Part shown: positions 17,790 to 58,073 of the stretch, in pieces
Layout of the letters: each line of letters begins with the position of its first letter
Numbering within the stretch: position 1 is the stretch's first letter
Origin: Cloacibacillus porcorum
GTDB lineage: Bacteria > Synergistota > Synergistia > Synergistales > Synergistaceae
Assembly: GCF_001701045.1 (NCBI RefSeq)
Contig: NZ_CP016757.1
Span: 248,001-312,000, forward strand
DNA: 64,000 nt
Direction of reading: 5' to 3'
Notes under the pieces: model-generated
Database searches by the model: none
What the model saw: the letters and a program-made list of their open reading frames with translations, nothing else
Told to the model about the DNA's origin: nothing
Position numbers and translations under genes: made by a program

Positions 17790-17818
17790 TTGACTAAACA
17801 GTGATTTTTTTATATACT
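17790..17818 (+). promoter_or_regulatory. Promoter of tRNA-Leu
   Basis: TTGACT (17790-17795), 17-bp spacer, TATACT (17813-17818), about 14 bp before the tRNA 5' end. Confidence 0.75.
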
Positions 17819-17832
17819 TTCCCACGTTGAGC

Positions 17833-17917
17833 GCCGGGGTGGTGGAAATGGTAGACACGCACGTTTGAGGGGCGTGTGGGGCAACCCGTACGAGTTCAAT
17901 TCTCGTCTCCGGCACCA
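17833..17917 (+). tRNA. tRNA-Leu (anticodon GAG)
   Basis: 85 nt including an encoded CCA. The acceptor stem GCCGGGG pairs with CTCCGGC (one G-U). The D-arm is GTG/CAC; the anticodon stem CACGT/GCGTG encloses the loop TTGAGGG, giving GAG, which reads CUC/CUU. A long variable arm (about 14 nt), as expected for class II tRNA-Leu, is followed by the T-arm with GTTCAAT. The last ten bases recur in each downstream repeat. Confidence 0.95.
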
Positions 17918-18640
17918 TTCTTAAAGAAACCCTCATGAGGCTAGTCTATTGACTGGCCTCTTTTTTGTTACCCGGCGCAAATACAAAGCGACTCGCACAA
18001 AACGCATGGACGGCGTTTTGGCTCGCTGCTTTTCCGGCACCATTCTTAAAGAAACCCTCATGAGGCAGGTCATTTGACCGGCCTCTTTTTTATTACCTAA
18101 CGCAGATACTGGCCGACTCGCACAAAATCGAAGATTTTGGCTCTCTGGCCATCCGGCACCATTCTTAAAGAAACCCTCATGAGGCTAGTCTATTGACTGG
18201 CCTCTTTTTTGTTACCCGGCGCAAATACAAAGCGACTCGCACAAAACGCATGGACGGCGTTTTGGCTCGCTGCTTTTCCGGCACCATTCTTAAAGAAACC
18301 CTCATGAGGCAGGTCATTTGACCGGCCTCTTTTTTATTACCTAACGCAGATACTGGCCGACTCGCACAAAATCGAAGATTTTGGCTCTCTGGCCATCCGG
18401 CACCATTCTTAAAGAAACCCTCATGAGGCTAGTCAGTTGACTGGCCTCTTTTTTTATTACCCAGCGCAAATACAAAGCGACTCGCACAAAACGCATGGAC
18501 GGCGTTTTGGCTCGCTGCTTTTCCGGCACCATTCTTAAAGAAACCCTCATGAGGCTAGTCTATTGACTGGCCTCTTTTTATTACCTAACGCAGATACTGG
18601 CCGACTTGCACAAAACGCAGAAGCGGCATTTTCTTCCTTC
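17909..18640 (+). repeat. Six-copy tandem repeat array restarting from the tRNA 3' end
   Basis: Copies begin (CCGGCACCATTC) at 17909, 18034, 18153, 18278, 18397 and 18523. Spacings of 125, 119, 125, 119 and 126 bp reflect two alternating types, A and B, giving a 244-bp super-repeat; the last copy is a degenerate A/B hybrid. Each unit holds the tRNA 3' end, a 10-bp terminator hairpin (first one: stem 17937-17946/17951-17960 then T6), and a second imperfect hairpin. Hairpin arms differ between A and B but pairing is mostly kept (AAAACGC/GCGTTTT versus AAAATC/GATTTT). No protein is credible here. Confidence 0.9.
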
Positions 18641-48830: not shown

Positions 48831-49089
48831 TTTAGCTTTTGACTTTGCCCTTAAAGGCGCCCTCTCAGAGGGAGCTGGCTCGGCGATGTTTTTCGCCGAG
48901 ACTGAGGGAGAGTTGCCCTTATGTTCTCCCGCGCCATACAGAGCAACACTCCTTCCGTCAGCCGCCAAAAACAGGCGGCCGACACCTCTGATGTAACTAC
49001 CAGCCGAATCGCACAAATCAGAAGAACTCTGATTTGGCTCCCTGGCCGCCTCAGAGAGGGAGGCTGTAAGGGCAAAGTCAAAAGCTAAA
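48831..49089. repeat. Palindrome-rich dispersed element with 23-bp perfect terminal inverted repeats
   Basis: 259 bp bounded by TTTAGCTTTTGACTTTGCCC (48831 onward, 23 bp in total) and its exact inverse (49067-49089). Inside are the GGCGCCCTCTCAGAGGGAGCT hairpin region, CTCGGCGA/TTCGCCGAG, GCCGCC/GGCGGC and a hairpin (49003-49047) shared with the tRNA-Leu repeat array. No protein coding. It resembles a MITE or REP-type element. A second copy is the target of the IS3 insertion at 53.4-56.5 kb. Confidence 0.8.
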
Positions 49090-57678: not shown

Positions 57679-57746
57679 ACTCCTGCCGTTTGGACAGGAG
57701 TCATTACCGCAGCAGCGAAATTCGGGCGAACTCCATCGCCCTTTTT
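57679..57746 (-). promoter_or_regulatory. Fluoride riboswitch (crcB motif) with terminator
   Basis: Minus strand: GGGCGATGGAGTTCGCCC (57742-57725) is the conserved fluoride-aptamer hairpin, followed by the pseudoknot region and ATGACTCCTG. A terminator stem GACTCCTG/CAGGAGTC (57703-57679) with a T-rich tail follows, so fluoride binding would free transcription of crcB. A TATAAT (57767-57762) lies just upstream. Confidence 0.9.
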
Positions 57747-58073
57747 ATTTTACGTCATTGATTATACACTATGGCTGAGTACGAAACTATTAGGAAGTCT
57801 GCACACCTGGCGCGAAATGTGAAAGGTAAAATTCAAAGTTTCGGAAATTATCGGGGCGGCGGCAGGAGGCACACTGTGTTTTTTAAATTAAGGTACTTGA
57901 ACAGAACATGCTTTCATGCTATCTTTTGCAGAATATCGATTCGGATATACTTAGGCTCTGGCAACATGGAGAGTAAATGTTCCCGAGTCTTTTTATTGTG
58001 TATTTGACTTGAGAAGAGGAGACTTTGCCGATATGACTCCTGGTTATCCGTTTTACGCTGCTGTCGGGCTGAT
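57747..58073. other. Spacer with promoters for crcB and the GGDEF-EAL gene
   Basis: 327 bp without a supported gene. It has TATAAT on the minus strand for crcB and, on the plus strand, TTGAAC (57897-57902), 17-bp spacer, TATCTT (57920-57925) that could serve the downstream GGDEF-EAL gene; the leader would be about 145 nt. Confidence 0.45.

Follow-up and report, generated by a model that had tools for sequence, protein, structure and literature searches.

A dispersed hairpin family with gene-end duplications as a likely origin of the repeat array behind tRNA-Leu(GAG) in Cloacibacillus porcorum

Introduction

Why does the 3' end of a tRNA gene recur again and again directly behind the gene itself? 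In a 64,000-nt stretch of the genome of the gut bacterium Cloacibacillus porcorum (the window; contig NZ_CP016757.1, positions 248,001 to 312,000), tRNA-Leu(GAG) is followed by tandem units that each restart with its last bases. Repeats of tRNA ends at E. coli tyrT have, to our knowledge, been known for decades, with no agreement on their origin. The original prediction for the locus studied here held that the array could yield a small-RNA ladder or present the enzymes of tRNA 3'-end processing with decoy substrates. We propose that the array was likely generated by a dispersed family of hairpins that duplicates gene ends in an unusual way. If so, the array preserves, much as fossils do, past insertions of a hairpin element not described before, one that leaves single-copy tRNA, ribosomal and metabolic genes unharmed because it copies their ends. 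Such an element would explain in concrete and testable terms how tRNA-end repeat arrays arise, and one would then have to ask which enzyme produces ~75-bp duplications.

Results

The tRNA-Leu(GAG) gene, identified by ARAGORN with its CCA encoded, occupies positions 17833-17917 of the forward strand, which carries all array features given here, and is preceded at 17790-17818 by a promoter-like site, TTGACT-17-TATACT (a consensus match, one such site being expected by chance). Six units start with the tRNA 3' end TCCGGCACCATT, at 17908, 18033, 18152, 18277, 18396 and 18522, giving a spacing of 125, 119, 125, 119 and 126; the first overlaps the tRNA, as the array is counted from the last ten bases of the gene. 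On either strand of the 64-kb window, no occurrence of CGGCACCATT, the core of TCCGGCACCATT, was found outside the unit starts. Every unit combines the tRNA end with a terminator and a second hairpin, here named H, of type A or B: A1 (17908-18032) and B1 (18033-18151) are followed by their identical copies A2 (18152-18276) and B2 (18277-18395), and then by A3 (18396-18521) and B3 (18522-18640). TRF describes this as a period of 244 x 2.9 (97% matches, score 1330) and also as a period of 125 x 5.8, and the first and second 244-bp super-repeats are 100% identical. The six restarts at the tRNA end and the alternation of two types within a 244-bp super-repeat, both foreseen by the original prediction, are thus confirmed by ARAGORN, TRF and the positions of TCCGGCACCATT.

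A hairpin followed by a T run, as had been predicted for each unit, is present in all six (-15.7 to -18.7 kcal/mol): that of the tRNA lies within A1 at 17937-17960, and the others at 18062-18085, 18181-18204, 18306-18329, 18425-18448 and 18551-18574. A terminator scan returned 8 sites against 1.8 expected from shuffling. The second hairpin folds better than shuffled versions (z -2.9 to -4.6), and the claim that every unit carries it holds up to the last, B3, where it has decayed and the array fades out at about 18640. The five copies of H lie at 17983-18034 (type A, 69.1 bits under model R1, described below), 18108-18153 (type B, 64.5 bits), 18227-18278 (type A), 18352-18397 (type B) and 18472-18523 (type A), the last three likewise matched by R1. 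No internal promoters were found in the array, the sole promoter-like site being that before the tRNA.

BLAST searches with the array gave short matches elsewhere in the genome of the window (G000), at the second hairpin. A covariance model, R1, built from an alignment of 24 versions of H, matches 50 times in G000, 46 times in the complete genome of a congener (G001) and 33 times in G004, and finds matches in 33 of 183 genomes of the class. The 24-version alignment contains compensatory changes at 11 of 12 pairs, with 95.1% of cells paired (slid-partner control, ≤49%) and a covariation score of 0.544 versus 0.199 when shuffled. When 87 distinct copies are aligned, both partners vary in 13 of 14 pairs and 94.9% are paired (slid controls, ≤48%); a G-C/A-T pair inside the conserved loop is among those that covary. 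These compensatory changes bear out the earlier statement that the arms vary while pairing is kept. H measures about 45-58 bp, has a strongly conserved internal loop and follows the consensus ACYARSC GAYTCRCAC (variable stem) GGYTCKCTG SYYRT. Pairing is broken by A-C in 48 cases and by G-T in 4, mainly at one column pair, which is only a hint that the complement, the strand opposite the tRNA, may be the strand on which H folds, A-C being a wobble there. Neither the array nor a supported H was found in the viral contigs searched. A pattern search for the end of H followed by CCGGCACCATT in all genomes, from which records near the window were possibly left out, gave 26 single matches in unrelated phyla, and the four re-tested with R1 were all negative. 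As part of the model developed below, H is probably a mobile miniature element, REP-like in build, belonging to the order Synergistales.

Many dispersed copies are simple, of the form C^TGATGnACAAAC-H-GGCCR (the caret marks the junction): they start with C^TGATGnACAAAC, end in GGCCR or GCTTA and have no long duplication. Some of those in G000 interrupt 5S pseudogenes by clean insertion at CTACTC^TCCCACGG. At locus L155 (2458-2510, 2691-2742) an intact 5S gene stands beside H-interrupted 5S pseudogenes, and pseudogenes with H at the same position recur at several loci of G000 (L155, L173, L175, L177 and L179), with two H in tandem at L175; G021 has one H at this 5S position. A copy of the simple type, with CTGATGTAACT on its left, also lies elsewhere in the window at 48999-49050 (+). 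This copy is embedded in a compound repeat of greater length that is found at many places in the genome and has inverted arms, CTCCCTC/GAGGGAG, on its flanks.

At six unrelated loci a second copy of the upstream gene end starts at the last base of H, directly 3' of it: tRNA-Leu, tRNA-Arg(CCG) and, identified when every H copy retrieved was scanned, rplS, an aminotransferase gene, the junction of an ABC ATPase gene with the next gene, and a T-box leader (protein genes are named from a reading of their translations). At tRNA-Leu the restart is seen in 4 genomes of 3 genera. At tRNA-Arg(CCG), in both G000 and G001, an intact tRNA is followed by H and then by a second tRNA 3' half starting with TCCGGAGG. 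At the ABC junction the end of the ATPase gene is retained in the upstream copy, and the next gene has its start in the downstream one. In the other tRNA stretches of G000 that were examined, H with a restart was found only at tRNA-Arg(CCG). Where a tRNA cluster contains the same tRNA twice, the repeated tails proved to belong to whole genes, not restarts, and behind tRNA-Leu(CAA) a tail match of 8 nt is not accompanied by H.

The upstream copy usually starts about 73-82 bp before H: 74 at rplS, the T-box leader and the ABC junction, 82 at tRNA-Arg, and 75-76 (G000) or 76 (G021) at tRNA-Leu; the aminotransferase gene, at 144, falls outside this common distance. In simulations with uniform distances, such clustering arises by chance with a probability of 0.0002-0.005, the test being post hoc. 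The duplication begins with T, preceded by C at tRNA-Leu, tRNA-Arg, rplS, the T-box leader and 5S, and by T at two loci. It can be aligned at full length at tRNA-Leu of G021 (76 nt) and at tRNA-Arg (p 0.001 and 0.0005). At the T-box, rplS, ABC and aminotransferase loci only its first 29-101 nt are alignable and the H-proximal stretch lacks significant similarity, so that a full 74-bp duplication is at most putative there. The full and partial copies of tRNA-Arg(CCG) change together (L131 and L153; T-arm GGAG/CTCC in G000, GGGG/CCCC in G001), a sign of gene conversion. At the aminotransferase locus (L163, G000:C1:537075-537126, minus strand) the 101-nt end copies are identical mid-way and differ synonymously at both ends; a 10-nt stretch before H there, CCGTTCCTGC, is complementary to the H loop.

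Three of the gene-end sites lack the insert in relatives. The T-box site is occupied in G001 and empty in G000, the aminotransferase gene of G001 has no insert, and at the ABC locus the 30-bp junction occurs once in G014 and G020 and twice, on both sides of H, in G000 and G001. Copies can also be lost or altered, since the T-box site of G020 and rplS of G001 have a stretch, Y, followed by H without a downstream copy. At this rplS locus (L232) H is now a perfect palindrome, GACTCACAC...GTGTGAGTC, and looks as if it had been corrected by hairpin template switching.

Comparison with related genomes, proposed with the original prediction, places the tRNA-Leu array beyond this strain: arrays behind the same tRNA consist of five units in G001 (in the order A, B, A, A, truncated), two units and a remnant in G010, and two units in G021, where the second H is nearly deleted. 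The remaining family members inspected have the terminator only or a different flank. Units are more alike within one genome than between genomes, which favours exchange between them. In G000 as in G001, the H subtype of A units differs from that of B units, and from this we infer that the A/B arrangement arose from two insertions and subsequent amplification.

Discussion

Our proposal is that H can move and creates a ~75-bp duplication on insertion, and that the tRNA-Leu array represents one A and one B insertion amplified by unequal exchange; we give this model a probability of roughly 0.6. It builds on the dispersal and covariation of H, the restart directly 3' of it at six loci, the empty sites and the near-constant distance, all of which are observed. 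H would move as a folded single strand, through an enzyme of the HUH type or another, and insert at a pyrimidine^T site, where the duplicated stretch would begin and from which it would run for about 74-82 bp up to H. Two kinds of copy would result: clean simple insertions, and a gene-end mode that leaves the ~75-bp duplication, with H between the intact gene and a second copy of its end. The duplication would return its end to the gene that was hit, and insertions into single-copy genes would be tolerated because the gene end is rebuilt. At tRNA-Leu(GAG) two subtypes, A and B, would have inserted at TC^TCCGG, and unequal exchange between the direct repeats would then have produced A-B-A-B-A-B. 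Rather than a processing signal, the tRNA 3' end in each unit would be a side effect of insertion. The duplication itself may be the product of a staggered cut or have formed by another route, its H-proximal part being alignable at the tRNA loci only.

The array could also be a functional one, resembling that of the rtT RNA, in which leaky terminators permit read-through that is cut at the CCA-like restarts into small RNAs, or in which the restarts are decoys for tRNA 3'-end enzymes. The conservation of terminator and hairpin in every unit would fit such a role, and the terminator hairpins, kept in all units, count to that extent against the mobile model. The same tRNA bears arrays in four genomes, the plan is shared with E. 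coli tyrV, where a small RNA is annotated, and full tRNA-Arg and its partial copy have changed in step in each species. However, the hairpin and restart also occur at protein genes and at a T-box leader, which offer no tRNA 3' end to mimic, and H is dispersed, so the decoy reading is not supported; nor does the predicted small-RNA ladder gain support. The array is moreover absent from most family members inspected, there is no rtT match, and the excess of A-C over G-T exceptions, although mainly from one column pair, fits a fold on the strand opposite the tRNA. We judge a functional array decidedly unlikely, and neither idea is needed to account for the repeats: on present evidence the array is real and common to relatives, and is not a tRNA-specific decoy device.

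Passive tandem duplication, in which H inserts cleanly downstream of a gene and then provokes replication slippage that duplicates the stretch from the gene end to H, we regard as improbable, if a shade less so. Hairpins are known slippage points, tRNA-Leu does show the stretch and H repeated together in tandem, and rplS of G001, with gene, Y and H and no downstream copy, fits this reading. Against it stand the nearly equal distance at five loci, the lack of a second H after the second gene end at tRNA-Arg, T-box, ABC and aminotransferase, and the near absence of microhomology between the end of H and the start of the duplication; moreover, a clean insertion into the ABC junction would have separated the downstream gene from its start site. 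Far less probable still is serial site-specific integration, with each unit a tiny cassette that brings a copy of the gene end along and that a recombinase inserts in trans. The restored gene ends recall tRNA-targeting integrative elements, and the aminotransferase copies, alike mid-way and synonymously different at both ends, could be read in this manner, but units of ~119-126 bp contain no gene, the sites are unrelated in sequence save for pyrimidine^T, and in each species the duplicated ends have the sequence that the host itself has.

Returning to insertion of H with gene-end duplication, a search for a mobilising enzyme found none, and against the model likewise stand the distance of 144 at the aminotransferase gene, the partly alignable duplications at the four non-tRNA loci and the lack of a long duplication at simple copies. 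A RAYT as the mover was rejected, since PF01797 (Y1_Tnp) is absent from four genomes that carry H, namely G001 (complete, 46 H), G004, G020 and G021. H as a derivative of a resident IS200 was likewise rejected, as the single Y1_Tnp copy of G000 is of the IS200 type and its end hairpins are unrelated. A search for Y2_Tnp (IS91-like) transposases gave no match, but its controls were silent as well. By inspection, H has no RYYYAAC/GTTRRRY boxes and is not an integron attC site.

In build, H resembles REP/BIME sequences, which are, like H, short, high-copy, dispersed imperfect palindromes with a conserved mismatched region. We know of no gene-end duplications of ~75 bp for REPs, and a survey of REPs does not mention Synergistetes. 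The E. coli REP needs its bulge, and TnpAREP cleaves it at C^T, on either the 5' or the 3' side of the hairpin (PMC8266576). Junctions of H read C^T at five of the sites described above and T^T at two. REPs have a GTAG (or CGTC) tetranucleotide at the 5' foot, whereas the foot of H is ACYARSC after TGATGnACAA or varied sequence, and a REPtron has a cognate RAYT, whereas the complete G001 has none. H may therefore resemble a TnpAREP-cleaved REP at most by analogy and, with neither GTAG nor RAYT, is not a member of that class. Miniature elements of the IS200/IS605 group share with H an end hairpin and the lack of terminal inverted repeats, but unlike H they have ends in common with a resident IS. 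As with tRNA-targeting integrative elements, H loci have a gene end duplicated around an insert that leaves the gene intact; those elements, however, carry an integrase, which units of 119-126 bp do not, and H loci extend to rplS, the ABC junction and a T-box leader.

The resemblance to E. coli tyrT was rightly predicted as far as the plan is concerned. At tyrT/tyrV, tandem units likewise restart at the tRNA 3' end (in K-12 the repeat is 178 bp x 3.1 and contains three restarts with the final 19 nt of tRNA-Tyr), each directly after a hairpin-rich stretch, as in the tRNA-Leu array; the tRNA is a different one and the sequence unrelated. The tyrT stretch is low-copy and not seen dispersed, in contrast to H: it occurs at 1-10 places per genome (median 3), which is roughly what the array alone accounts for, and varies among strains. 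A broader claim, that a new mini mobile hairpin makes a near-constant target duplication of ~74-82 bp that rebuilds gene 3' ends, through an enzyme unrecognised so far, and that tRNA-end arrays, perhaps including E. coli tyrT, are its products, is one that we advance tentatively and think rather doubtful. Model R1 has no match at the E. coli tyrT locus, and the rtT RNA family (RF00391) has none in the window at the gathering score. A fluoride riboswitch (RF01734) is present in the window at 57688-57749 on the minus strand, with 39.2 bits.
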